Shown here piece after piece: positions 2,619 to 31,533 of a stretch of 64,000 nucleotides of DNA. Both the position numbers and the translations under genes were made by a program. This DNA comes from an uncultured Pelagibacteraceae bacterium. Its GTDB lineage: Bacteria > Pseudomonadota > Alphaproteobacteria > Pelagibacterales > Pelagibacteraceae. The DNA lies in the NCBI GenBank assembly GCA_902552805.1, contig CACDIC010000006.1:1-64000 (forward strand), given 5' to 3'. Position 1 is the stretch's first letter. The number at the start of each line of letters is the position of its first letter. Below the pieces are notes generated by a model, which was not told the DNA's origin, did not search any database, and saw nothing but the letters and a program-made list of their open reading frames with translations.

Positions 2619-3512
2619 ATGCAAAATACTAAGGCATACATAATGCTAGTATGTGCAACATTATTTTGGGCAGGAAACTTTACATTAGCAAAGCTTGCTT
2701 ATTTAGAAAATATACCTCCCAACTCACTCGCATTTTTAAGGTGGTGCCTAGTATGGATAATATTACTTCCCTTCACCTATAAAGAGATATTAAAATTAAA
2801 ATATCAAATTAAAGGAAATTTATCATTACTTCTTATTCTAGGTTCTACTAGTGTATGTATATTCACTTCTTTTACTTATAACGCTTTAAATTACACTCAA
2901 GTAATTAATGCATCACTTTTTAATACCGCAATACCTGTAACAATAATTTTAGTTTGTTTTTTATTAAAAATTGAAAAAACAAATATTTTTCAAATATCTG
3001 GATTAGTCATTTCAGTTTTAGGAATTTTAGCTATTATTACTAAACTTGATCTAAATATTTTACTTACTTTAAATTTTAACAAAGGCGATTTATTTATGGT
3101 CGGAGCAATTATTGCTTGGGGAATATATTCTGCATATTTGAGAAAAAGAACCTTTGAAGTATCTTTACTTGCTCTTGTCCATATAATTTGCACATTTGGA
3201 TTAATTTTTCTTTTACCTCTATTTATTTTAGATATGACACAAGGCAAAATTATTGAGATGAGTAGTAATTTTTTTTATATTTTAGCTTATGTTGCAATAT
3301 TTCCAAGTATTGGATCTTACTATTGTTGGGCTGGCGCTGTTTCAATCATTGGGGCAAATCGAGCTGGAATATTTTTATCTTTAATTCCGTTATTTAGCAC
3401 TTTAATGGCGATATTCTTTTATAATGAACAATTCCAATTTTTTCACTTGATTGGTGCAATTTTAATTATATTAGGTTTATTTTTATCAAATAAAGAAATT
3501 AAAAATGCTTAA
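2619..3512 (+). CDS. DMT/EamA family transporter
   Basis: 297 aa, ~10 TM helices, EamA-type pattern (FWAGNFTLAKL, FLRWCLVWIILLPF). Confidence 0.85.
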   Translation: MQNTKAYIMLVCATLFWAGNFTLAKLAYLENIPPNSLAFLRWCLVWIILLPFTYKEILKLKYQIKGNLSLLLILGSTSVCIFTSFTYNALNYTQVINASLFNTAIPVTIILVCFLLKIEKTNIFQISGLVISVLGILAIITKLDLNILLTLNFNKGDLFMVGAIIAWGIYSAYLRKRTFEVSLLALVHIICTFGLIFLLPLFILDMTQGKIIEMSSNFFYILAYVAIFPSIGSYYCWAGAVSIIGANRAGIFLSLIPLFSTLMAIFFYNEQFQFFHLIGAILIILGLFLSNKEIKNA

Positions 3513-4455
3513 AGTTGCAATATTAGATGACTATCAAAATGTCTCTCAACAATTTGTAGATCTTGAAAAACTTGCAGGAAAATATGAAATCAAAATTTTT
3601 AGTGAGCCATTTGAGGATGAGGCTGATGTCATAGATAAGTTGGCTGATTTTGAGGCATTGTTAGTCATGAGAGAACGAACTCCCATTACTAAAAACATAA
3701 TAGAAAATTTGTCAAAACTTAAATTCATAATCACCAGTGGATTAAGAAACAAAGCAATAGACCTGGATACTGCAAAAAAAAGGAAGATCATAGTTAGTGG
3801 GACAGATAGCAATTTAAATCTAACTCCAGAATTAACCTGGGCTTTAATTCTTGGATTAGCTAGAAATATTAAAGAAGAAGTTGATAATATGTATCAGGGT
3901 TATTGGCAGACAACAGTTGGTGTTGAGCTCAAAGGAAAAATTCTAGGATTAATTGGACTTGGGAAAGTAGGTTCCCAAGTTGCAAAGATTGGTAAAGCTT
4001 TTGGTATGCAAGTAATGGCTTGGAGTGAAAACCTCAATCTGGATAAATGTAAAGAGCTAGATGTTTTACCTTGTACTAAAGAAGATTTAATCAAAAATTC
4101 TGATTTCTTATCTATTCATGTGCAAGGAGGTGAAAGATATAAGAATTGTATTACTTTAAAAGAATTAGATAAAATGAAAAAAACTGCTTTTTTGATAAAT
4201 ACTTCAAGAGGTTCAATAGTTAATGAGGACGATTTAATTATTGCTTTATCAACGAATGAAATTGCGGGGGCAGGACTTGATGTTTATGAAAAAGAACCCT
4301 TACCAGAGAATAATAAACTAAGATTTTTACCTAATGCTTTACTAACTCCTCATTTAGGATATGTGACTGCAGAAAATTATAATGTCTATTATAATCAAAT
4401 GATTGAGTCACTCGAAGCTTGTGCAAGTGGTAAGCCAATTCGTGTGATAGAGTAA
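3505..4455 (+). CDS. D-2-hydroxyacid dehydrogenase family protein
   Basis: LGLIGLGKVGSQVAKIGKAFGMQVMAWS NAD-binding motif; INTSRGSIVNEDDLI; GLDVYEKEPLP. Confidence 0.9.
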   Translation: MLKVAILDDYQNVSQQFVDLEKLAGKYEIKIFSEPFEDEADVIDKLADFEALLVMRERTPITKNIIENLSKLKFIITSGLRNKAIDLDTAKKRKIIVSGTDSNLNLTPELTWALILGLARNIKEEVDNMYQGYWQTTVGVELKGKILGLIGLGKVGSQVAKIGKAFGMQVMAWSENLNLDKCKELDVLPCTKEDLIKNSDFLSIHVQGGERYKNCITLKELDKMKKTAFLINTSRGSIVNEDDLIIALSTNEIAGAGLDVYEKEPLPENNKLRFLPNALLTPHLGYVTAENYNVYYNQMIESLEACASGKPIRVIE

Positions 4456-16762: not shown

Positions 16763-18112
16763 ATGAATCATGATTTCCATCACTATCAAAATTATCAAAA
16801 AATTAATGAATATCAATTTATAAATAAGATGTTTTTTGGCGCAAAAAAAAAGGAAACAACTAAAGTAGATGATACTATCAGTAAAGATTTAGAATTAGTT
16901 ACAAAAATGAATCATGATCTAGCTAAATCGTTGGATCTTAAAGAAACTTTAAGTAATTCTTTAGAATTAATTATAAAAAGAATAAACGCACAAGCTGCAA
17001 ATATTTTTTTAATTGATGATAAGAACCAATCTTTTCAGTGTATTGCATCCAAACATCAAGCATATCTAGAGGATTTTGAAATTCCAATTACTCAAGGTGT
17101 AATGGGTAAAGCAGTAGTTTTAAAAAAATGTATAAGAGTAGGTGATGTAAGAAAAGATGTTAGAGAAATTGCTGAATTTTATTTTGACTTAGATAATAAA
17201 ACAAATTTTACAACATATTCTGTTTTATGTTCTCCTTTAATAGTATCTGATGAGTGTATAGGAGTTATTCATTGTTTAAATAAAAAAACAAACAATAAAT
17301 TGTTTGAGGAGAATGACAGAAAACTTTTAGAAACTTTATCTGGACCTGCTGCATTAGCAATTAGAAATGCAAGAATGGCAAAAGATCTTGTTGATAAGAA
17401 TAGAATGCAGAAAGAAATAGAAATTGTTGGTGAGATACAAAAAACTTTATTATCTCAAAATCAAAAAGAAAAATTTCCAATAGCAGGAATAAATATTCCA
17501 GCTAAAGTAGTTTCAGGAGATTTTTATAATTTTGCTGAGCTTACTGAGGGAGTTTATGGTTTTGGTGTTGCCGATGTATCTGGTAAAGGAATAAAATCTT
17601 CTCTGCTTATGTCAAAAGCATCAAGTCTTTATAGATGTTTAAGTAAAACAAATTTTTCTGCAGCAGAACTTTTAAATATTTTAAATTCAGAAATATGTGA
17701 GACTACTTCAAGAGGAATGTTTGTTACAATGCTCATAGGAATTTACGACAGCAATAAAAAAGAACTTACATTAGCTAATGCAGGACACGAACCGCCTTTA
17801 ATTTACGATAACGAAGGAAATTTTTCTAATTTTGAAGAAGCTGGTCCCCCCTTAGGTATTGCTCCAAAGTTTAAATTTAAAGAAACAAAAATTAATTTTT
17901 CAAATAGTTCAATGTATATTTTCACGGATGGTATTACCGAAATAAAAGATTCGAAAGGAAACATGTTAGAGTCTGATGGATTTAAAAATTATATTAAAAA
18001 ATATCAACCTATTCCTAATTATGAAAGATTAAATAAGATTGTCGAAGATATAATTAAATCTGGCCGAATACAAAAAGATGATTTAACTATTGTTGTAGTT
18101 GATGGGTTATAA
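16763..18112 (+). CDS. GAF-domain SpoIIE/PP2C-type serine phosphatase (RsbU-like)
   Basis: GAF-like region then VVSGDFYNFAEL, FGVADVSGKGIKSSLLMSKA, LANAGHEPPLI, FTDGITEIKD, DDLTIVVVD; internal start at 16829 possible. Confidence 0.9.
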   Translation: MNHDFHHYQNYQKINEYQFINKMFFGAKKKETTKVDDTISKDLELVTKMNHDLAKSLDLKETLSNSLELIIKRINAQAANIFLIDDKNQSFQCIASKHQAYLEDFEIPITQGVMGKAVVLKKCIRVGDVRKDVREIAEFYFDLDNKTNFTTYSVLCSPLIVSDECIGVIHCLNKKTNNKLFEENDRKLLETLSGPAALAIRNARMAKDLVDKNRMQKEIEIVGEIQKTLLSQNQKEKFPIAGINIPAKVVSGDFYNFAELTEGVYGFGVADVSGKGIKSSLLMSKASSLYRCLSKTNFSAAELLNILNSEICETTSRGMFVTMLIGIYDSNKKELTLANAGHEPPLIYDNEGNFSNFEEAGPPLGIAPKFKFKETKINFSNSSMYIFTDGITEIKDSKGNMLESDGFKNYIKKYQPIPNYERLNKIVEDIIKSGRIQKDDLTIVVVDGL

Positions 18113-18616: not shown

Positions 18617-18937
18617 CTCTAACACAAAAATTTTAAACTCTAACACAAATTGCTTCAAATTTTCAAAATTCAATAATTGTTGATTTTATTAGCTTTTTTA
18701 AGTTTAAAAAAATAATTTTAACTCTAACACAATTATAAATTACTCTAACACAAATAATAAAATTTTATTGTGTTAGAGTCCATCTATTTTCTCAAATTAT
18801 AAAAAAAAAATTGATTATCTTAAAAGTATTGATTTTACTTACTTTTTCAAAAAAAACTCATTTTGAACATATAATATTTGATTTTGTGTTAGACTAAAAA
18901 TGATTTTTGTGTTAGAGATTCGTTAATTGTGTTAGAG
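18617..18937. repeat. Eight-copy array of the 11-mer TTGTGTTAGAG/CTCTAACACAA upstream of pilMN
   Basis: CTCTAACACAA at 18617, 18638, 18722 and 18743; TTGTGTTAGAG at 18768, 18884 (last base C), 18907 and 18927. Confidence 0.9.
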
Positions 18938-18956: not shown

Positions 18957-21347
18957 ATGGACGATCAAGAAGAAGATAAAAAAAATTTAGATAATGACCC
19001 AAATGAATCTGGATCTGAAAATCAATCTAAGGTTGAGGATAAAAATCAACCTGAAGATGTAGATAATCAAAATAATGAAACAATTCAGAATGAAAATGAA
19101 AATATTGATCAAAATACTGACGAAACTAAGATCTTTGATGCATCTGTTGAAAAAAAAGATGAGAATGAGGGATCCACTCACCAAGTTATTCATAAAAAGG
19201 ACGGGAGACTTCATATTTACGTTAGACAAGACAAATATAAGGGTGAATTAAAATCTAAAAATTGGGTTGGAAGACTTTATATTGATGGAAAACAAAAAAT
19301 TTCCTCTTCAGGAACAACAAATCTAGATGAGGCAATACCGATATTAGAAAAATGGTTTGACGATGTTCAAGCAGAAAGTGAAAGACTAAAAAAAATTGCT
19401 GAGACGGGAGAACAAGCGCCGGCTTCAGTGCAAAATCAACCTGAAACGAATACAAATGTAGAAGAAAAAATTATTCCTGATGAAACCTCTGATATTAAAA
19501 CTGAAGAGCAAAAAATTGTTCCTACTCAAGGTGAGCCTGTGGTTCAAAACAATATCACTTTTAACAATGAAGTCACTGCAAAAGTTGAGGACACAACAGA
19601 AGAAAAATCAAAAAATAAAGTTTCAAATATTTTTGGCAAATTAAAAAATTTAAAATTTAAAAAACCTTCATTAAAAGGAATTAAACTTCCCAAATCGCCT
19701 GAAAAGAAACGAGACAATCCTTTTAATAAAGCATTAGAATTTTTTAAATCAAAAATAAGTAAATCTTCTGTTCAAGGAGAGGAAGTTATTGGCGTTGAGT
19801 TAACTAATAAAGAGATAAGACTTGCACAAATAAATACAAATAAGTCAAATCAATGGGTCTTAGATAGATTCTATTCTCATCCAATAGAAATTCCTGATGA
19901 AAGTAGTGTTCTTGAAAATGCTGAAAAAGTTACAACAGAACTTAGTTTAGCGTTACAAAAGTCTAAAATAGATGTAAGTAATGTTGCAATCTCAATACCA
20001 GTAACTAGTGCAATCATAAGAGTGGTTACGTCTCCATTGATGAAAGATGAGGAATTACAAAAAGCAATTGAAACGAATTCATTGTGGGAAAATTTAGTTC
20101 AATTAACAGATAACTTAGACGATTATTCAATCTTCCATCAAGTGATTAATCGAAATGAAAAAGATAATACAATGGATATTCTTTTTGTTGCATCTAAATT
20201 AGCAGATATTAATAGCTATGTATCAATAGTGAAAAATAGTGGTTTAAACCCTGTTATTATTGATGTTAAATGTTTTGCCTTAAAATCTGCTGTCGACCAA
20301 ATTAATCAAATCTCCAACAAAACTGAGGACGCAAATTTAACTGCAGTGTTAGAATTTGGTTTAGATGAAAATTATTTAATGATTTTGTATGATAATAACC
20401 CAATAATTACAGATATTTTTTTAAGAGGGCAGGATAGAAAAATTTTATTAGAATCTGAGGATGTAGAGGAAAAAGAAGCACTAGTTAGAAGGTACGTCAC
20501 TCAAGTTAAACAAGCCGTTCAAGATTTTGAAACAAAATATGAAAAAAGAATTAGAAATATCAAAGTTGTTTCAGATCTTAAAAATGTTGAGGAATATTTA
20601 TCATTTTTTAGAAAAGTATTAATGAATGTTGGCTTCAACTTATTTGACCCGATTGAAGGTCTAAAAGTGCCACAACAATTTGAACAGCAAATTAATTTAG
20701 AAAATAGATCTTACTTAGCTACACCTGTAGGACTAGCGTTTAGAAAACTTGATGTGTTTGGATATTATAAATTTGTAACAGCTGCAAAAAATATAAATTT
20801 ACTTCCTAATAGAAAGAGCTTGTTTCAGCAAAAGAAAATGAAAGCAATTTCAAGTTTTGCATTTAAAGGGTTAGCTGGAGGTATCGCAGCATTATATTTA
20901 GTTTTATTTTCGTTATCTTTTTGGAATATTCATTCTTATAATAAAAAATTAAAAGATTATTCTAAAGTTGTAAAAGTTCACAAAGAAAAATCTGCAGAGT
21001 TAAAAAAAGTCTCAAAAGAATTAAAATTAATTGAAACTACATTACAATTAAGTTCAACTTTAAAATCTAACAAAGAATTAACTTATAGAATATTAGCTCA
21101 GATAGCATCAAGCGTCCCTTCAAGATTAAAATTTGATCAAGTTGATTATAATGGTGGACGTATGATTACTATACAGGGTGTCGCAGCTAGCGATCAAGAT
21201 ATTTTAAAGTTTATTGACAACTTGGGAAAACAACAATTAGTCGAGCAAGCATCTTTGTCTTCAATGAGACTTCCTCGAGCAACACAAAATGGAACTACAA
21301 TGAAAGGGTTTAGAGTTTTTGTAAAAATTAAGAAAGTAAAATTATGA
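18957..21347 (+). CDS. PilM-PilN fusion protein with N-terminal acidic/accessory region
   Basis: 796 aa; PilM-like actin fold part (EEVIGVELTNKEIRLAQIN ... VAISIPVTSAIIRVV) then PilN signature INLLPNR, TM segment and PilN periplasmic region; followed by pilO. Confidence 0.85.
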   Translation: MDDQEEDKKNLDNDPNESGSENQSKVEDKNQPEDVDNQNNETIQNENENIDQNTDETKIFDASVEKKDENEGSTHQVIHKKDGRLHIYVRQDKYKGELKSKNWVGRLYIDGKQKISSSGTTNLDEAIPILEKWFDDVQAESERLKKIAETGEQAPASVQNQPETNTNVEEKIIPDETSDIKTEEQKIVPTQGEPVVQNNITFNNEVTAKVEDTTEEKSKNKVSNIFGKLKNLKFKKPSLKGIKLPKSPEKKRDNPFNKALEFFKSKISKSSVQGEEVIGVELTNKEIRLAQINTNKSNQWVLDRFYSHPIEIPDESSVLENAEKVTTELSLALQKSKIDVSNVAISIPVTSAIIRVVTSPLMKDEELQKAIETNSLWENLVQLTDNLDDYSIFHQVINRNEKDNTMDILFVASKLADINSYVSIVKNSGLNPVIIDVKCFALKSAVDQINQISNKTEDANLTAVLEFGLDENYLMILYDNNPIITDIFLRGQDRKILLESEDVEEKEALVRRYVTQVKQAVQDFETKYEKRIRNIKVVSDLKNVEEYLSFFRKVLMNVGFNLFDPIEGLKVPQQFEQQINLENRSYLATPVGLAFRKLDVFGYYKFVTAAKNINLLPNRKSLFQQKKMKAISSFAFKGLAGGIAALYLVLFSLSFWNIHSYNKKLKDYSKVVKVHKEKSAELKKVSKELKLIETTLQLSSTLKSNKELTYRILAQIASSVPSRLKFDQVDYNGGRMITIQGVAASDQDILKFIDNLGKQQLVEQASLSSMRLPRATQNGTTMKGFRVFVKIKKVKL

Positions 21348-22048
21348 ACTTTAAAATTGATTTAAAAAATATTGATTTAAAAAATATATCGCTCCAAGAT
21401 ATCCAAGCAAAACTAAGAAATGTTGACAAAAAAACTTGGATTAAAATAGGAGTATCTGTAGGTGCAATAATTTTCTTTTTAGTTATTTTTTATGCAGTTT
21501 TAAACCCGATTGTTAACAAGAAAAAAGCTCAACTTGACGACATGAATAAAAAGAAAGAAGAAACTGCAAAATTTATAAGTGACATAAAATCAAAAAATAA
21601 AAAAATAAAGAAAAAGACACCACAATATAAGCAGTATTCAACTTTATTTCACACCAAAGCTGAGGTTGAGGGCTTGTATCAGACCTTAAGTGAATTTGCG
21701 GCAATGAATAATTTGATAATTTCTAAGATTGAAAAGAAAAAAATTGCTGAGGTCTCCAAATCTGATGCAATAGCCTCAGTAAGTAAAAAAAAGGGTAAAA
21801 AAAAGAAAAAGAAAAAGAGCGAAAAACGAGATGTTAAAAATATAGCTTATTACAAAATCCCAGTAGATTTTGAGATAACTGGAAATTTTTTAGGATATAT
21901 TAAGTTTAAAAGGCAATTATCTCTATCACAGAAGACGTTAAACTTTGACAATGAGTCTATCAAAGTGGTAAAACAGGGAGATTCAACTGGAGCGATAAAA
22001 GTGAATGGAACATTGACTATAGTAGGTTTGGCAGATGAATTTTTTTAA
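21344..22048 (+). CDS. pilO: T4P inner-membrane assembly protein PilO-like
   Basis: Single N-terminal TM, coiled coil, position between pilN and pilP; ATGA overlap. Confidence 0.8.
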   Translation: MNFKIDLKNIDLKNISLQDIQAKLRNVDKKTWIKIGVSVGAIIFFLVIFYAVLNPIVNKKKAQLDDMNKKKEETAKFISDIKSKNKKIKKKTPQYKQYSTLFHTKAEVEGLYQTLSEFAAMNNLIISKIEKKKIAEVSKSDAIASVSKKKGKKKKKKKSEKRDVKNIAYYKIPVDFEITGNFLGYIKFKRQLSLSQKTLNFDNESIKVVKQGDSTGAIKVNGTLTIVGLADEFF

Positions 22049-22544
22049 GAAAATAATATATATTATATTTTTATTGCTTTTTGCATTCGCTGGTAATGCT
22101 GATAACCATGACAAAGAACAAAATATTGTTGAGCGAGCAAAAGAGGTAAACCAAAAAATAAAAGAAAAGCAAGCAAAACAAAAATCGAATATCAATTCAG
22201 AAATAAATAGTGAGGAGCCGCTTCCATTAAATGATCCTTTTGTAGGTGATGGTACTTTAGGAGGATCTAGCTCAGGTGTAAAACTTATTGCTGAAACTGA
22301 GGAAGAAAAGAAAAAATTGAGTGTGTTCAATTACAAATTAGTAGGGATAATCGAAGGTGAGCGTGTAGGATTTGCATCTTTGGTAGATGAAAATGGGGAT
22401 ATAATAAATGTAGCTTACAATGATGAGTTATCCCCAGGAGTGAGACTGATAGGCATTAGTAAAAAGGAAGTTATTTTTGAAAACGGCGAGGACTCTTTGG
22501 TCGTGATTAATTTTAAAAATCAAATTATAGAGAGAAACAACTAA
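22035..22544 (+). CDS. pilP: T4P pilot/assembly protein PilP-like
   Basis: Signal peptide, PLPLNDPFVGDG, C-terminal FNYKLVGIIEGERVGFASLVDENGDIINVAYNDEL PilP/GspC-like HR domain. Confidence 0.8.
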   Translation: MNFFKKIIYIIFLLLFAFAGNADNHDKEQNIVERAKEVNQKIKEKQAKQKSNINSEINSEEPLPLNDPFVGDGTLGGSSSGVKLIAETEEEKKKLSVFNYKLVGIIEGERVGFASLVDENGDIINVAYNDELSPGVRLIGISKKEVIFENGEDSLVVINFKNQIIERNN

Positions 22545-24097
22545 TGAAAAAATCTTATTTAAAAATATTTGCAAGTTTTATTATTGTAGGATTATTAGTT
22601 GCAGGTTGTACTGTCACAGGTAAAAAAAAATCTAACAAAACTTTTAAGCACAATACTCCACTTATTAAAACAGATGTTAAAGAAATAGGTAAAGCAGAAA
22701 TTGATAAAATGGCAGAGATGGGCCCAACTCCTGTAGAGGGAGATGTGGTAAAACTTAAAAAAAGGAAAAAATTATCTTCAGTAAAAGAAAAAAATTATCT
22801 ATTAATTCCAGAGGAATATGTGAGTTTAAAACAAAGGGTGACATTTAATTTCCAAAACATGGATTATGGTGAAACCATGCGATTAATGGGAGAAATAGGT
22901 GGTGTCAATATTCTTGTGGGCGAGGATGTAGCTGGATCAGTTACAGCTTCACTGACAGATGTACCTTGGGATAAAGCTTTTAATGCTTTATTAGATATGA
23001 AAAATTATGCAGCTGATATCGATGTTGCAAGCAATATTATAAGAGTAGCAACTCCAGCAACATTAACTTCTCAAGAAAGTTATAAATCCGCAAGAGCTCA
23101 AGCTGTTAAAAAGAAAGTTGAATTAGAGGATTCAGTTGAACCAATTATCTCAGAAATATTTAGATTATACTATATCTCCCCAGCAGAAGCCAAAGCTACA
23201 ATAACTGAACTTTTTACCTCTAGCACTGGTGCAGCTTCATTTATGCCTATACAAGTTACTGAGGAGACAACTACTCGTTCTATTATTGTTAGAGGTAAAG
23301 AAAAAGATTTGGATGTGGTCGATAAAGTTTTAAGAGAAATTGATGTAAGAACGAAACAAGTTCTAATGGAAGTATATATTGTAGAAGCCGAGTCTTCTTT
23401 TGAGCAAGAACTAGGTAAAAAATTAGGTGGAGTTTATAATAGAAATAGAGAAAGAGTTGGTGGTACACTTGGTGGAACGTCGATTGGTGCACCATCTGGA
23501 ACTGACTCTTCTATATCAGATGACACTGCAAACTTTGGTGATGGAAAGGATACATTAATGAATTTTCCAGCTGCTGGTGCAACATCAGGTATAGGAATAC
23601 TTAGAAGAACTGGTTCAGCAGTATTAAAAGTAGAGCTAGAAGCAATGGAGAAGAGAGGTATTTCAAAAATAATCTCTAATCCAAAAATATTTTCTTTAGA
23701 TAATCAAACTGCAACAATCAAACAAGGTGAACAGATTCCTGTAGCGGGAGGCGATGGTGCTGATACATTTACTGACGCAGCGTTGGTTATGACAGTGACA
23801 CCTAGTATCATAGGAGATGGAAATGTACTTCTAGACGTAAAAGTAAACAACGACTCTCCAAATAGACAAAACGCTGGTAGCGTTGGAATAAACACCATGG
23901 AAATTGCTACAAAATTACTTGTAGCTGATGGTGATATAGTCGTAATTGGTGGAATAAAGAAAAACACAGTTTCAGACAATGTAGGCCAAGTTCCAGGTGC
24001 AGCAAATCTTCCTATCGTTGGAAAAATGTTTAAAGGAACAAGTAAAGCTGATAAATTAACTGATTTGTTGGTGTTTATCGCTCCAAGAATTTTATAA
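22544..24097 (+). CDS. pilQ: T4P secretin PilQ-like, with lipoprotein signal
   Basis: N-terminal lipobox LLVAGC; VTFNFQNMDYGETMRLM, VLMEVYIVEAE, secretin domain TATIKQGEQIPV...LLVFIAPRIL. Confidence 0.9.
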   Translation: MKKSYLKIFASFIIVGLLVAGCTVTGKKKSNKTFKHNTPLIKTDVKEIGKAEIDKMAEMGPTPVEGDVVKLKKRKKLSSVKEKNYLLIPEEYVSLKQRVTFNFQNMDYGETMRLMGEIGGVNILVGEDVAGSVTASLTDVPWDKAFNALLDMKNYAADIDVASNIIRVATPATLTSQESYKSARAQAVKKKVELEDSVEPIISEIFRLYYISPAEAKATITELFTSSTGAASFMPIQVTEETTTRSIIVRGKEKDLDVVDKVLREIDVRTKQVLMEVYIVEAESSFEQELGKKLGGVYNRNRERVGGTLGGTSIGAPSGTDSSISDDTANFGDGKDTLMNFPAAGATSGIGILRRTGSAVLKVELEAMEKRGISKIISNPKIFSLDNQTATIKQGEQIPVAGGDGADTFTDAALVMTVTPSIIGDGNVLLDVKVNNDSPNRQNAGSVGINTMEIATKLLVADGDIVVIGGIKKNTVSDNVGQVPGAANLPIVGKMFKGTSKADKLTDLLVFIAPRIL

Positions 24098-24101
24098 TAA
24101 T

Positions 24102-25853
24102 ATGTTAAAAATAAGTAGAGAAAGCGAAATTAACCTAATCAATGTTTTAATTGATAATGATGTAATTTCTGGAAAAGACTTAATAAATATTAAAAAGACT
24201 AGCACAGAGGGTAATAAATCGCAAATAGAAGCAGTATTTGATCTTAAATTAACTGATGAAAAAAGAATTTTAGATATTTTAGTTAAAGAACAAAATTTAG
24301 AAATTGTTGATCTTGCTAAACAAGAAGTTTCTGAAGAGATCAAAACTGTTCTTCCATCTAATTATATAAAAGTGAATTTTGTTGCCCCTTTTAAAATTGA
24401 CGGCAAAACTTTACACATAGCTATTCCCGATAGTTCTAAACTGAATTTAATGAGAAATTTAAAAGCAATTACAAAAAAAAATATTGAATTGCATGCAGCA
24501 CCTTTGACACAAATTTCACAATTCATTGAAAAAATTTCTAGTGAAAGTGGAGAAGTGACTGCTGCGACTATTAGAGAAGAAAATAAAGAAAAACAAAAAA
24601 CTTTTGATTCTGATTTAGGCGAGGCAGGAGAGGTATTAGAAAATACGCCAGAAGAGGATATTGAGGCAATAGAAAATGAGTCTGAGGTTATAAAATTCAG
24701 TACAGCTGTAGTTGCAGATGCAATTAAAAGTGGTGTTAGTGATATTCATATTGAACCTTACAGATTTTCATCAAGAGTTAGATATAGGCTTGATGGAATG
24801 CTTACTGAGCAAGAGCAGTATCGAAAATTTCTTCATGATAATTATGGTGCGGTAGTAACACGTTTTAAGATTATGGGTAAACTTGATATTGCAGAGAGAA
24901 GACTACCTCAAGATGGTGCGATAAACTTCAAAATTGAGGGTAAAGTAGTTGACCTCAGACTTTCAATTTTACCTACAGCAAATAATGAAAGAATTGTAAT
25001 GCGGGTTCTTAACAAGGATGCAGGAGATATAACTTTAGAGCAATTAAACTTTGAAGATCAAGATTTGAAAAGTTTAAGAAAAGCAATTCATAGTACTCAA
25101 GGTTTAATTCTTGTAACAGGCCCTACAGGTTCTGGAAAATCAACAACTTTATATAGTATATTAAAAGAGGTAAGTAAGCCTCATCTAAATATTTTAACTG
25201 CTGAAGATCCAGTTGAATATGAACTAGATGGTGTGGGGCAAGTTCAAATAAAAGATGATATAGGGTTATCTTTTGCTGCCGCTCTTAGATCTTTTTTGAG
25301 ACAAGATCCTGAAATTATTCTTGTCGGAGAAATGCGAGATAAAGAAACTGTTGATATTGGATTAAAAGCTGCTCTGACGGGTCACTTAGTATTTAGTACA
25401 CTTCACACTAATGATGCGCCAAGCACAATTACCAGATTACAGAATATGGGAACACCCGACTATTTAATTAGTGCTGCCTGTCAACTTGTTGTCGCTCAAA
25501 GACTTGCGAGAAGAAATTGTAAAGATTGTAAAGTTCCTGATGATGACGTTAATCCAAAGGTTTTGCAAGATTTAGGTTTCACTGCTGAAGTTGCATCAAG
25601 GGTTAAAGCTATCAAAGGTAAAGGATGTCCAAAGTGTAAAGACACAGGCTATAAAGGAAGACAAGGTATTTATGAAATACTATCGGTTTCTAAGCCCCTT
25701 AAAGAAGCAATTCTAAGAAAAGCTACTACTCCTGAATTAAGAGAAATTGCAGTGAAAGAAGGTTTTCAAACAATGCAGGATATGGGTAGAAGATTAATTG
25801 CATCAGGTGACCTGAATTTTAGAGAATATGAAAGAGTTTTGTCTGAGGGATAA
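24102..25853 (+). CDS. pilB: T4P extension ATPase PilB
   Basis: GPTGSGKSTTLYSIL, LRSFLRQDPEIILVGEMRD, TGHLVFSTLHTNDAPSTITRL, tetracysteine CKDC/CPKC. Confidence 0.95.
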   Translation: MLKISRESEINLINVLIDNDVISGKDLINIKKTSTEGNKSQIEAVFDLKLTDEKRILDILVKEQNLEIVDLAKQEVSEEIKTVLPSNYIKVNFVAPFKIDGKTLHIAIPDSSKLNLMRNLKAITKKNIELHAAPLTQISQFIEKISSESGEVTAATIREENKEKQKTFDSDLGEAGEVLENTPEEDIEAIENESEVIKFSTAVVADAIKSGVSDIHIEPYRFSSRVRYRLDGMLTEQEQYRKFLHDNYGAVVTRFKIMGKLDIAERRLPQDGAINFKIEGKVVDLRLSILPTANNERIVMRVLNKDAGDITLEQLNFEDQDLKSLRKAIHSTQGLILVTGPTGSGKSTTLYSILKEVSKPHLNILTAEDPVEYELDGVGQVQIKDDIGLSFAAALRSFLRQDPEIILVGEMRDKETVDIGLKAALTGHLVFSTLHTNDAPSTITRLQNMGTPDYLISAACQLVVAQRLARRNCKDCKVPDDDVNPKVLQDLGFTAEVASRVKAIKGKGCPKCKDTGYKGRQGIYEILSVSKPLKEAILRKATTPELREIAVKEGFQTMQDMGRRLIASGDLNFREYERVLSEG

Positions 25854-25867
25854 ATAATTGTTAATAT

Positions 25868-27109
25868 ATGGAAGCATTTACATACAAAGGAATTTCTGAA
25901 GGTAAATACGTTGACGGAGAAATTGAGGCGCTAAATTTAGATGAAGCATCTCATAAGCTTAAAGAGCAAAAAATTATAATAACCAATATTGCTCGTACAT
26001 CTAAAAAGAAAAAAACAGAAGATAAAGAAAAGAAAAAAGGTAAAGGCCTTAGTCTTTTTGGTAAAAAGAAAGCAAAAGTTGAAGATGTATTAATTTTTTC
26101 TAAGCAATTTGCAACGATGGTCAAAGCTGGACTTCCAATATTACAAGTTTTAGGGATGTTAAGAGACCAACTTGAAAGTCCTGCAATGAAGGATGTAGTG
26201 GAAGAAATAAGAAAAAGCCTCGAGGGCGGTGTTACTTTATCAAAATGTTTTGAAAAATACCCAGAGCTTTTTGATAATGTCTATGTAAATTTGATCAAAG
26301 CTGGTGAAGCTAGTGGAAAACTTGATGTTTTCCTTCTTAAGATCGTTGAAGCCCTTGAAAAAAAAGAGAAAATTAAAAAAAAGATTAAATCAGCTTTAAT
26401 GTATCCGAGCATAATGTTTACAGTTGCAATTACTGTCAGTGCCTTCATGTTGGTCAAAGTTGTTCCAGTTTTTGCCAAAATGTATGATGGAATGGGAATA
26501 GAATTACCAGCAGCAACTGCAACAATAATGGCAATGAGTGATTTTTTAAGAGGCACTGGTGGAAAAATATTGTTATTTGGTTCAATCGCTTTTGTCTTTG
26601 GATTTAGATATCTTACTCAAAAAAATGAAAAGGTTAGATATGCATGGCACAAACAAGTTCTAAAGTTGCCAATCTTTGGTGACATGATTTTAAAATCTAT
26701 GTTGGCTAGAGTATCTTTAATTATGGGTAATTTAAGTGCTGCAGGTGTAAATTTACTTGAAAGTTTAGAAATTTCAAAATCAGTTAGTAACAATGTATTA
26801 GTTCTAGAATCTTTAGAAAATGTAAAAAAAGGAGTTTTCTCTGGAGATACTTTAACAAAATTATTTTTAAAAGATCCTTTATTTCCACCTACCTTTGCAC
26901 AATTAATTTCTGTCGGAGAACAAACTGGACAATTAGATGAAATGTTTGGGTCAGTTGCAAAATATTATGAGGCAGAATTTGATACAACTGTTGATAATCT
27001 TTCAGCATTAATTGAACCAATCATGATTGTATTCATGGGTATTATGATTGGTGGATTAATGATCGCAATGTATTCTCCTATTTTCAATGTTGGAGCACTG
27101 ATCGGTTAG
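25868..27109 (+). CDS. pilC: T4P inner-membrane platform protein PilC
   Basis: F-type domains: FSKQFATMVKAGLPILQVL, VYVNLIKAGEASGKLD, FAQLISVGEQTGQLDEMF. Confidence 0.95.
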   Translation: MEAFTYKGISEGKYVDGEIEALNLDEASHKLKEQKIIITNIARTSKKKKTEDKEKKKGKGLSLFGKKKAKVEDVLIFSKQFATMVKAGLPILQVLGMLRDQLESPAMKDVVEEIRKSLEGGVTLSKCFEKYPELFDNVYVNLIKAGEASGKLDVFLLKIVEALEKKEKIKKKIKSALMYPSIMFTVAITVSAFMLVKVVPVFAKMYDGMGIELPAATATIMAMSDFLRGTGGKILLFGSIAFVFGFRYLTQKNEKVRYAWHKQVLKLPIFGDMILKSMLARVSLIMGNLSAAGVNLLESLEISKSVSNNVLVLESLENVKKGVFSGDTLTKLFLKDPLFPPTFAQLISVGEQTGQLDEMFGSVAKYYEAEFDTTVDNLSALIEPIMIVFMGIMIGGLMIAMYSPIFNVGALIG

Positions 27110-27115
27110 ATAAAT

Positions 27116-27547
27116 TTATAATTGTTTAGTTAAAACTAAATGATTAATCCAAGGTTTTTTTCCGTCCTTAAACTCAACCGCATCCATTATTTGTTGAATA
27201 AAAAAGGTTCCTAGTCCACCTGGTTTGACATTATCGATTTCTCTATGTTTAACTTTTCCTGGATCAACAGGTGTACCCATATCATAAAAACCAATTTGCA
27301 ATTTGCTATCCTTACAACTAATTTGTACAACCATTTTATCTTCTGTATCTGGGGCGTCCTTGTATGCGTGTTTAACAATGTTTTGCGCTGCTTCAGCTAT
27401 TGCTAAAACTAATTCGTCTTTTAAATTTTGATCTATATGAAGTTTTTCAAAAACTTCTCTACAAAAACTTCGAACATCTTTTAAACTTGATGATCGCACC
27501 AAAAAATCTTTTTTTTCTGTATGATTTGTGTGAGCCAATTCACTCAT
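27116..27547 (-). CDS. RsbW-like anti-sigma/serine kinase HATPase
   Basis: ELVLAIAEAAQNIVKHAY N-box, DMGTPVD G1, GGLGTFFI G2 motifs. Confidence 0.88.
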   Translation of the reverse strand: MSELAHTNHTEKKDFLVRSSSLKDVRSFCREVFEKLHIDQNLKDELVLAIAEAAQNIVKHAYKDAPDTEDKMVVQISCKDSKLQIGFYDMGTPVDPGKVKHREIDNVKPGGLGTFFIQQIMDAVEFKDGKKPWINHLVLTKQL

Positions 27548-27553
27548 TAGTGA

Positions 27554-27853
27554 TTATTCCAAATTTAATATTTGTTCTAATTTTGCCATCATAATTACCT
27601 TTAAAACAGATTTACTAACTTCTTTGATAATTACTTTTGTATTTTTCTCTAAAGCTTTTTGGTGACTCTCAATTAAAACTGATATTCCAGAGGAGTCCAT
27701 ATATTGCACATTGCTTAAATTTAAATGAACTTCTTTACCAGTTTCAATGTGTGGAAAAATTACTTCTTTTGCTTTTTCAGTAACATCCATATCGATTTCA
27801 CCATCAAGATGAATCGTTGCTACATTTCCTTCTTCGGTTACTTTGTAACTCAT
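27554..27853 (-). CDS. STAS-domain anti-sigma factor antagonist
   Basis: YMDSSGISVLIES phospho-acceptor motif; 99 aa. Confidence 0.92.
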   Translation of the reverse strand: MSYKVTEEGNVATIHLDGEIDMDVTEKAKEVIFPHIETGKEVHLNLSNVQYMDSSGISVLIESHQKALEKNTKVIIKEVSKSVLKVIMMAKLEQILNLE

Positions 27854-28134
27854 AAAAATTTCCTCGCCATTGCTAAAACTTTTTCAACTGGTTTACTTAC
27901 TTCTACTAACTCAAATTTTGTATTTTTTTTTTCTGACAACTTCTTACTTTCAATTAAAACTGATATTCCTGATGAATCCATATATTCAACTTTACTTAAA
28001 TTCAGGTGAACTTCATGGCCTGCTTCAATAAGAGGTAGTATTGTCTGTCTAGCTTTATCTGCTACATCCATATCTATTTCACCATTTAGGTGAACTACTC
28101 TTTTTGTATCAATTTCTTCTACTTTATATGTCAT
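27850..28134 (-). CDS. STAS-domain anti-sigma factor antagonist (tandem paralog)
   Basis: YMDSSGISVLIES motif; overlaps the following STAS ORF by 4 nt. Confidence 0.92.
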   Translation of the reverse strand: MTYKVEEIDTKRVVHLNGEIDMDVADKARQTILPLIEAGHEVHLNLSKVEYMDSSGISVLIESKKLSEKKNTKFELVEVSKPVEKVLAMARKFL

Positions 28135-29370: not shown

Positions 29371-31533
29371 ATGAATAATGATATGGCTCAAGAAGTAATA
29401 GATATTTTAACAAGTAATATCGACACCTTATGGGTGATTGATTGTGCGATTTTAGTTTTCATCATGCAAGCAGGTTTTATGTGTATGGAAACAGGTTTAT
29501 CCAGACACAAAAATAGCATTAACGTTGCATTAAAGAATGCGGCAGACTTTGGTGTTTCGGTTGTTATCTTTTGGATTTTTGGTTTTGGTTTGATGTTTGG
29601 CACTTCTTACAATGGATTTTTTGGTACCGATTTATTTTTCTTTAAAACAGATAAGGCGGAGTACATGACTTACTTTGTCTTTCAAGCAATGTTTGTTGCA
29701 ACAGCGGCAACAATTATTTCGGGCGCAGTAGCAGAGAGAATGAAATTTAATGGTTATTTAATCATGACAGTTTTGGCGACTGGAATAATTTATCCAATTG
29801 TTGGTCATTGGGCTTGGTCTTCAAGTTATCTTTCAAAGTATGATCCTGTTGATCAACTCTTAGCAATAACAGGCACAGTTAAAACGACTGGTTGGTTATC
29901 TGATTTAGGTTTTGTTGATTTTGCTGGAAGCACTATTGTTCACTCCGTGGGTGGTTGGATTGCTTTAGCAGCAGTCATTATTTTAGGTCCAAGAATTGGT
30001 AAGTATTCAGATGCTAATAAAGGAAAGTTTACTGGCTCAAGTTTTCCTTTAGCAGTGTTAGGAACACTTATACTGTGGTTTGGTTGGTTTGGTTTTAATG
30101 GCGGAAGCAATGGTGCTATGGATGAGTCTGTTCCATTAATTTTAATCAATACCTTTTTAGCGGCAGCTTTTGGTTTGTTAACTGGATTAGGCGCTTCCTA
30201 CTTAAGATTTAAGAAACCAGATCCATTTTATATTATTTTAGGCCCACTAGCGGGTTTAGTTGCAATTACCGCTGGATGTAATTCAATGACTTCAGTTACT
30301 TCAATTTTTGTTGGAATTGCCGGTGCGATTATTGCAATTATAGTTAACGAAGTATTAAATAAATTTGAAATTGATGATGTTGTTGGAGCGGTACCTGTTC
30401 ACTTGGCTGCGGGAGTTTGGGGGACACTAGCAGTTGGTTTATTTAGTGATCTAAGTATTTTAGATACTGGCCTTGATAGATTTTCTCAAATTAAAATTCA
30501 ATTAATTGGTATCATTTCGATTGGTGCATTTACATTTATATTTTCATTTATAATTTTAAGTCTTTTTAACAAATTTTATCCATTAAGAGTAAGCCCCGTT
30601 CAAGAAGAATTAGGTTTAAATATTGCAGAACATAATGCTGTCTCTATTGAGCATGATTTAATTTCTATTTTAGATAAACAATCAGAGTCTGGTGATCTTA
30701 AAATTAGAGGTCCTCAAGATCCTTTTACAGCAGGGGGCGTGATTGGTCTTTATTATAATAAACTTATGAGCAAACTTGAGACTAGTGAAGATGAAAAGAA
30801 TAAATGGCGTGAGAGAATTTCAAAAGAAGTTAAACTTGCAGTTAAAGTTCAAGAAAACTTTTTACCAAAAAGAAATTTAAAAAATTATCCTGTTCATGGA
30901 ATTAATATTGCAGCAAGAGAAGTATCAGGTGATTTTTTCAGTTTTTATCCTCACAACGATAGCATTTATTTTATAATTGCAGATGTCGCTGGTAAGGGAA
31001 TTCATGCAGGTATGGTAATGGCTAAGGCATCGACTTTGTTTGAAGTTTTAGCTCAATCAAAAGTAGATCCAGATGAAATGGTTTTTCATATGAACAATGA
31101 TTTAAATAATACTAAAACTGCTGGTATGTTTGTAACCTCAATCGTTGGTGAGTATAATTTAATTACAGATGAAATCAGATGGGTGAATGCTGGTCATCAA
31201 CCTGCAATTTTAAGAAACGGACAAGGTAAATACGATCAGTTTGAAAGTTCAGCTCCTCCATTAGGTGTGATTAAACAAAAAGATAAAAGTATTTATAATA
31301 TTCATAAAACAAAATTAAATGGTTCAAGGTTTTATGCTTTTACGGATGGTTTATCAGAAAGTTTAAATGACAATGGAGAAGAAATTGGAATTGAGGGTTC
31401 TATTGGTATCATCGAGCAAAATTATAATAAAGATACGATTAAACAATTAGATAGTATTACTCAATCTGTAATAGGGACGAGCCAAAATAAAAAATTATCT
31501 GATGACTTAACTTTAATAAGTATTGGAAAATAA
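29371..31533 (+). CDS. Ammonium transporter (Amt) fused to SpoIIE/PP2C serine phosphatase
   Basis: N-terminal Amt (MQAGFMCMETGLSRHKNSINVALKN, FGWFGFNGGS, HLAAGVWGTLAVGLF); C-terminal AREVSGDFFSFYP, IADVAGKGIHAGMVMAKA, VNAGHQPAILR, FTDGLSESL, DDLTLISIG, in one frame. Confidence 0.93.
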   Translation: MNNDMAQEVIDILTSNIDTLWVIDCAILVFIMQAGFMCMETGLSRHKNSINVALKNAADFGVSVVIFWIFGFGLMFGTSYNGFFGTDLFFFKTDKAEYMTYFVFQAMFVATAATIISGAVAERMKFNGYLIMTVLATGIIYPIVGHWAWSSSYLSKYDPVDQLLAITGTVKTTGWLSDLGFVDFAGSTIVHSVGGWIALAAVIILGPRIGKYSDANKGKFTGSSFPLAVLGTLILWFGWFGFNGGSNGAMDESVPLILINTFLAAAFGLLTGLGASYLRFKKPDPFYIILGPLAGLVAITAGCNSMTSVTSIFVGIAGAIIAIIVNEVLNKFEIDDVVGAVPVHLAAGVWGTLAVGLFSDLSILDTGLDRFSQIKIQLIGIISIGAFTFIFSFIILSLFNKFYPLRVSPVQEELGLNIAEHNAVSIEHDLISILDKQSESGDLKIRGPQDPFTAGGVIGLYYNKLMSKLETSEDEKNKWRERISKEVKLAVKVQENFLPKRNLKNYPVHGINIAAREVSGDFFSFYPHNDSIYFIIADVAGKGIHAGMVMAKASTLFEVLAQSKVDPDEMVFHMNNDLNNTKTAGMFVTSIVGEYNLITDEIRWVNAGHQPAILRNGQGKYDQFESSAPPLGVIKQKDKSIYNIHKTKLNGSRFYAFTDGLSESLNDNGEEIGIEGSIGIIEQNYNKDTIKQLDSITQSVIGTSQNKKLSDDLTLISIGK

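Follow-up and report, generated by a model that had tools for sequence, protein, structure and literature searches.

Some membrane-associated proteins with functions of their own are known also to bind promoter DNA, as do the one-component regulators of the ToxR/CadC type and PutA. In the ParR-parC-ParM plasmid partition system of the R1 type, two clusters of 11-bp iterons surround a promoter and precede the gene for an actin-like protein. To our knowledge, no promoter-binding role has been described for a pilus assembly-platform subunit. Complex tyrosine recombinases recognize arm sites through an arm-binding domain, which forms their N-terminal part (PMC8138268). Arm-binding domains, operators and PilM/PilN are all already known, each singly.

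The locus considered here, in a 64-kb stretch of DNA from a genome that groups with SAR11 (Pelagibacteraceae; the stretch is called the window), has features in common with each of these systems. The PilMN protein has the same modules as ordinary type IV PilM and PilN (Pfam PF11104 and PF05137) and the same pil operon; unlike those proteins, it joins both modules in a single chain, carries an additional domain and has an array of sites dedicated to it. As in ParR-parC-ParM, 11-bp copies are found upstream of the gene for an actin-like protein (PilM), but the array is chromosomal and has no fixed link to the origin, PilM is a pilus component, and the predicted reader is fused to the actin-like protein. 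A ParR-parC-type iteron centromere does not fit, the predicted reader being a strands-then-helix domain and not ParR, which is a ribbon-helix-helix protein. Compared with ToxR/CadC and PutA, PilMN has a different predicted DNA-binding domain. There is also a likeness to the arm-binding domains of recombinases of the lambda Int and Tn916 Int type (classes in PMC8138268): the PilMN domain also occurs N-terminally in SAR11 tyrosine integrases, its predicted strands and helix are tentatively comparable, and its candidate sites are, like arm-type sites, phased repeats only about 11 bp long, between which sites for a bending protein may lie. Unlike the integrases, PilMN has no core-binding or catalytic domain next to it, and unlike att arm sites, which are 11 bp apart, the copies are 21 bp apart, extend over 320 bp, lie at a promoter and surround no recombination core. 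No published description of the motif was found in a relevant context, no SAR11 pilM paper was found to deal with it, and no literature was found on a pilus assembly protein with such a domain and its own site array.

The repeat array and its conservation

Eight copies of TTGTGTTAGAG are found at 18617-18937 of the window, with all the positions and orientations that the initial annotation had given. Copies 1 to 4 (18617..18627, 18638..18648, 18722..18732 and 18743..18753) are exact and lie on the minus strand. The other four lie on the plus strand: copy 5 (18768..18778), exact and inverted relative to copy 4; copy 6 (18884..18894), which has one mismatch (a final C), corresponds to the conserved variant TTGTGTTAGAC and adjoins a promoter-like block; and copies 7 (18907..18917) and 8 (18927..18937), both exact, with the pilMN start codon 19 bp further on. 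The initial annotation had not found the 11-mer elsewhere in the window, and the window indeed holds no further copy even when one mismatch is allowed. The genome (1,072,515 bases, 87% complete) has seven exact copies, all inside the array, and the 19 other one-mismatch matches are scattered, a reversed control pattern giving 20. By this background, about 0.006 copies are expected per 320 bp. The array is not due to chance, since a similar arrangement recurs across SAR11, in some 100 genomes or more.

A paired-motif scan with one genome per species returned at least 120 further stretches, nearly all titled Pelagibacteraceae, and 121 loci were compared, namely the window and 120 among the matches listed. 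A domain-bearing pilMN lies beside the array in 112 of the 121 by a strict pattern and in three more by eye (L092, L114 and L118). Four arrays end at the edge of their stretch on the pilMN side and are not assessable (L063, L162, L169 and L175), and two loci (L144 and L181) are isolated repeats within unrelated DNA. All 115 assessable SAR11 arrays among the matches listed, window included, therefore directly precede a domain-bearing pilMN, and the position of the array upstream of this gene is kept in relatives. Neither outcome that would have counted against the initial annotation, dispersal of the motif over the genome or its lack of conservation among relatives, was thus observed. In viral contigs, paired arrays are essentially lacking (two matches). 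In one genome, about 15 motif copies with at most two mismatches extend over approximately 850 bp (L221 in G086, 2815-3660).

The common layout comprises three or four copies in one orientation followed by three to five in the opposite one, with a gap of 16-23 bp between the last copy and the pilMN start codon in most relatives. Same-strand spacings cluster at 20-23, 85-87, 96-98, 115-118, 126-129, 138-141, 148-153 and 161 bp, and the inverted pairs (-/+) of relatives are spaced by 25-26 or 35-36 bp, one helical turn apart. The spacings in 61 distinct architectures from the clade of the window fit a period of 10.7 bp best (R=0.84), with R=0.77 when the long spacings are taken alone. The same 10.7-bp period (R=0.74) is found in a divergent set in which pilMN is about 50% identical, the layout differs and the neighbor is often a divergently oriented pilT-type gene; this set retains the core TTGTGTTAGA, with mostly A or G at position 11. 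Because the spacings differ by steps of about 10.7 bp, all copies face the same side of the helix. The phasing on one face that the initial annotation had read from the 21-bp spacing is thus borne out, with the refinement that the relevant period is about 10.7 bp, 21 bp being two turns. Spacing changes by whole turns, together with intervening DNA that can scarcely be aligned, constitute strong evidence that protein binding on one face is under selection.

In AT-rich DNA, phased 11-mers in direct and inverted orientation have a superficial likeness to iterons or DnaA boxes, and an iteron or a DNA-uptake motif had been mentioned as alternatives at the outset. That the array is a replication origin, an iteron initiator site or an uptake signal is nonetheless highly improbable. 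The array always adjoins pilMN, and a DNA uptake sequence was rejected since the seven exact copies belong to one array and the motif is not dispersed. An oriC or iteron does not fit the GC skew, which does not switch across the locus, nor the position of dnaA, which is distant in relatives: in three genomes the array lies at about 7%, 19% and 25% of the genome from it. These distances and the unswitched skew of the window make an origin or a near-origin centromere unlikely. As for an RNA element at the array, this was discarded too, the sole Rfam match in the window being to the unrelated rhtB sRNA family (RF01814, 42011-42093).

The N-terminal domain of PilMN and its counterparts in integrases

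The pilMN fusion gene (18957..21347, plus strand) encodes 796 amino acids and is followed on the same strand, at 21344..27109, by pilO, a pilP-like gene, the secretin gene pilQ, pilB and pilC, which together probably form the controlled operon; pilP and pilC are presumed to be such from gene position and our own judgement. From the N-terminus, PilMN consists of a disordered tail, an arm-binding-type domain, a disordered linker, PilM, a transmembrane helix and PilN. In an AlphaFold2 model of the full protein, residues 1-74 and 151-255 are disordered, the latter forming a linker of about 105 residues, and a membrane helix spans 640-665. Both modules, the membrane helix and the pil operon context correspond to PilM/PilN of type IV pili.

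Among relatives, PilMN exists in two forms, one N-terminally extended and one whose match begins at about window residue 219. The extension contains a block of 65 residues, KKDGRLHIYVRQDKYKGELKSKNWVGRLYIDGKQKISSSGT...EAIPILEKWFDD (window residues 75-140; codons at 19179..19376, plus strand), which is the best-conserved part of PilMN, with a mean conservation of 0.87 vs 0.25 in each flank, and which is the predicted reader of the array. A 72-residue construct is modeled by AlphaFold2 (pLDDT 88) with strands at 6-8, 13-17, 31-37 and 40-45, followed by a helix that spans 51-71. Foldseek with this model gave no significant match among solved structures (best E 0.85), no sequence relative of the domain was found in the PDB, alignment to lambda Int by hhalign was not significant, and Pfam, NCBIfam and PHROG gave no convincing match to the domain itself. 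On structural grounds, assignment to the fold of solved arm domains, a three-stranded sheet with a C-terminal helix, is therefore tentative.

Three SAR11 proteins other than PilMN match the 65-residue block alone, and all three are tyrosine integrases of about 420 residues (L222, gene at 1103-2380; L223, 1461-2735; L224, 1378-2634) with the domain near the N-terminus, ahead of the core-binding and catalytic parts. Pfam Phage_integrase matches L222 at residues 207-405 (1.3e-7) and L223 at 234-402 (9.7e-8), and a PHROG integrase match in L223 begins at residue 34 (1.6e-13). When the PilMN and integrase domains are aligned, 23 of 72 columns are invariant. Tandem 11-bp repeats, e.g., TTGTGTAAGAG TAGTGTAAGAG, lie between the integrase start and a partial tRNA-like sequence; tandem repeats as good occurred in 0, 0 and 6 of 2000 shuffles for the three loci. 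One further TTGTGTAAGAG is found per locus near a resolvase gene, with 8, 6 and 16 of 2000 shuffles as good. The integrase-side repeats are placed as putative arm-type sites would be. These three loci belong to small, apparently undescribed SAR11 elements at tRNA-Leu(CAA), with the tyrosine integrase and a serine resolvase nearby.

The central argument is that one and the same domain is accompanied by an almost identical DNA word in two gene contexts that are not related to each other. As the domain is common to PilMN and to integrases with matching repeats beside them, the likely binder of the array is PilMN itself. In our reading, PilMN would have recruited an integrase arm-binding domain together with its sites, which suggests that a mobile-element domain for reading DNA, with its sites, has been co-opted to control or tie down a pilus operon. 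It also means that an uncharacterized protein domain can be paired with its probable DNA code by means of sequence only, and this in bacteria that are difficult to culture.

Presence and absence of the domain and of the motif go together. Every domain-bearing PilMN locus with upstream sequence has motif copies, and none with 0 or 1 mismatch was found at the 24 domain-less PilMN loci. In a tree of the PilMN core, the domain-less clade is nested among domain-bearing ones, long outgroup branches making the root less than certain; the two changes of domain state that this tree requires suggest one gain and one loss, with domain and array vanishing together, and two changes leave little statistical independence in the co-occurrence. 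A profile search of 397 genomes of the family detected the domain in 52, the carriers being PilMN, the three integrases and a single fragment located where a contig ends.

This bears on whether a separate, unlinked transcription factor might bind the array, the PilMN domain having some other role. The domain lacks a significant match to any solved DNA-binding domain, and its DNA binding is a prediction; a separate factor would, on the other hand, leave both the strict joint presence and absence and the near-identical repeats beside same-domain integrases unexplained, and is considered improbable. The dedicated regulator proposed in the initial annotation is to be modified accordingly: conservation backs a binder and a link with the pilMN operon, while the evidence favors a domain inside PilMN over a separate regulator.

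Neither the domain nor the integrases matched annotated phages at standard limits, weak matches of the catalytic part appearing at E up to 10. Proteins of about 115-160 residues that consist of the domain and a hydrophobic C-terminal segment, for which no Pfam family was found, are encoded on IMG/VR contigs (L230-L234, e.g., L233 at 2983-3330, plus strand), probably from T4-like phages of SAR11.

The promoter-like region and possible roles of PilMN

Directly upstream of copy 6 lies a conserved block that resembles a promoter, CTCATTTTGAACATATAAT (18857..18883, plus strand). In an alignment of 49 dereplicated sequences anchored on copy 6, which in relatives is mostly the variant TTGTGTTAGAC, the block CCCA-N3-TG-N2-CA is conserved at -27 to -15 relative to this copy, at a fixed distance, and in several relatives it can be read as TTGACC-17-TTATAC. 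Since the block directly precedes copy 6, copies 6-8 would begin at roughly the point where transcription starts and reach into the vicinity of the start codon. Conserved sites overlap or flank the predicted promoter of pilMN itself, as is found in autoregulatory operators.

PilMN of SAR11 probably serves either to control the operon that encodes it or to keep the chromosome at the membrane. Feedback autoregulation, mostly by repression, is the reading to which we give somewhat better than even chances. The recruited domain, on the long flexible linker of a membrane-anchored protein, would recognize TTGTGTTAGA(G/A), and several PilMN molecules would bind cooperatively along one DNA face, at the phased copies. 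Transcription would be blocked by those on copies 6-8, which have the promoter-like block on one side and the start codon on the other, and the upstream copies 1-5 would stabilize the complex through looping, in which a bending protein might assist at the TTGATTTTA motif. In this way, free PilMN would limit its own synthesis, and the pilus operon would be set to a level that depends on the amount of PilMN not engaged in machines, coupling expression to pilus assembly. If true, a part of the machine itself reads DNA. What counts against repression is that eight sites over 320 bp exceed the need of a simple repressor and that a membrane-bound repressor is unusual.

The gaps of the array contain a second conserved motif, TTGATTTTATTAGCTTTTT, at the center of the left gap (18680..18698, plus strand), with a second copy of TTGATTTTAYT in the right gap (18829..18847, plus strand). 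This second motif (TTGATTTTAYTNRYTTTTT) has its core inside the left gap, with at most one mismatch, in 51 of the 52 sequences compared, exact cores being 42-45 bp (mostly 44) after the preceding array copy, and in relatives it is often repeated in the right gap, sometimes inverted. Elsewhere in the genome there are only two exact copies, both intergenic in our judgement, one of them upstream of a gene resembling proteorhodopsin (G000:C2:9103, L288). One guess is that it is a site for a DNA-bending protein, three HU/IHF-family genes being present in the genome; the full IHF consensus was unmatched by eye.

The promoter-like block is preceded by five of the eight copies, and PilMN, with or without an IHF- or HU-type protein at the second motif, might instead switch the operon on, for which the fixed place of that motif and the three HU/IHF-family genes can be cited. 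The IHF consensus is incompletely matched, however, and copies 6-8, at or after the probable transcription start and reaching to about 20 bp from the start codon, fit blocking better, so that activation is judged rather improbable.

A role mainly in position rather than in expression can also be hypothesized: PilMN on the array would fix the locus to the membrane or to the base of the pilus, in the service of DNA positioning, transertion or segregation. The candidate binder is membrane-anchored and actin-like (PilM) and has a disordered linker of about 105 residues; the array, single per genome, large, convergent and phased, is richer than a simple operator; small phage proteins combine the domain with a hydrophobic helix; and iteron centromeres held by plasmid partition proteins offer a parallel. 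Against this, the varying distances from dnaA indicate no fixed position relative to origin or terminus and are similar for domain-less pilMN (about 17% and 20%), the array shows no switch of GC skew, many SAR11 lack it, and it lies, in the manner of an operator, right beside its own promoter-like block and the start codon. Such a tether is judged unlikely; if real, it would be categorically new. That a type IV pilus machine serves as a sequence-specific anchor of its own locus at the membrane, by means of a domesticated integrase domain, is likewise doubtful, and would, if true, connect the assembly of the pilus with gene expression and with the position of the chromosome in SAR11, the most abundant bacteria of the ocean.

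A GAF-SpoIIE phosphatase is encoded before the array (16763-18112), and an anti-sigma-type kinase and two STAS-like proteins after the pil genes (27116-28134), which is a partner-switching set within the pilus locus. Further on, at 29371-31533, an ammonium transporter is fused to a SpoIIE-type phosphatase.
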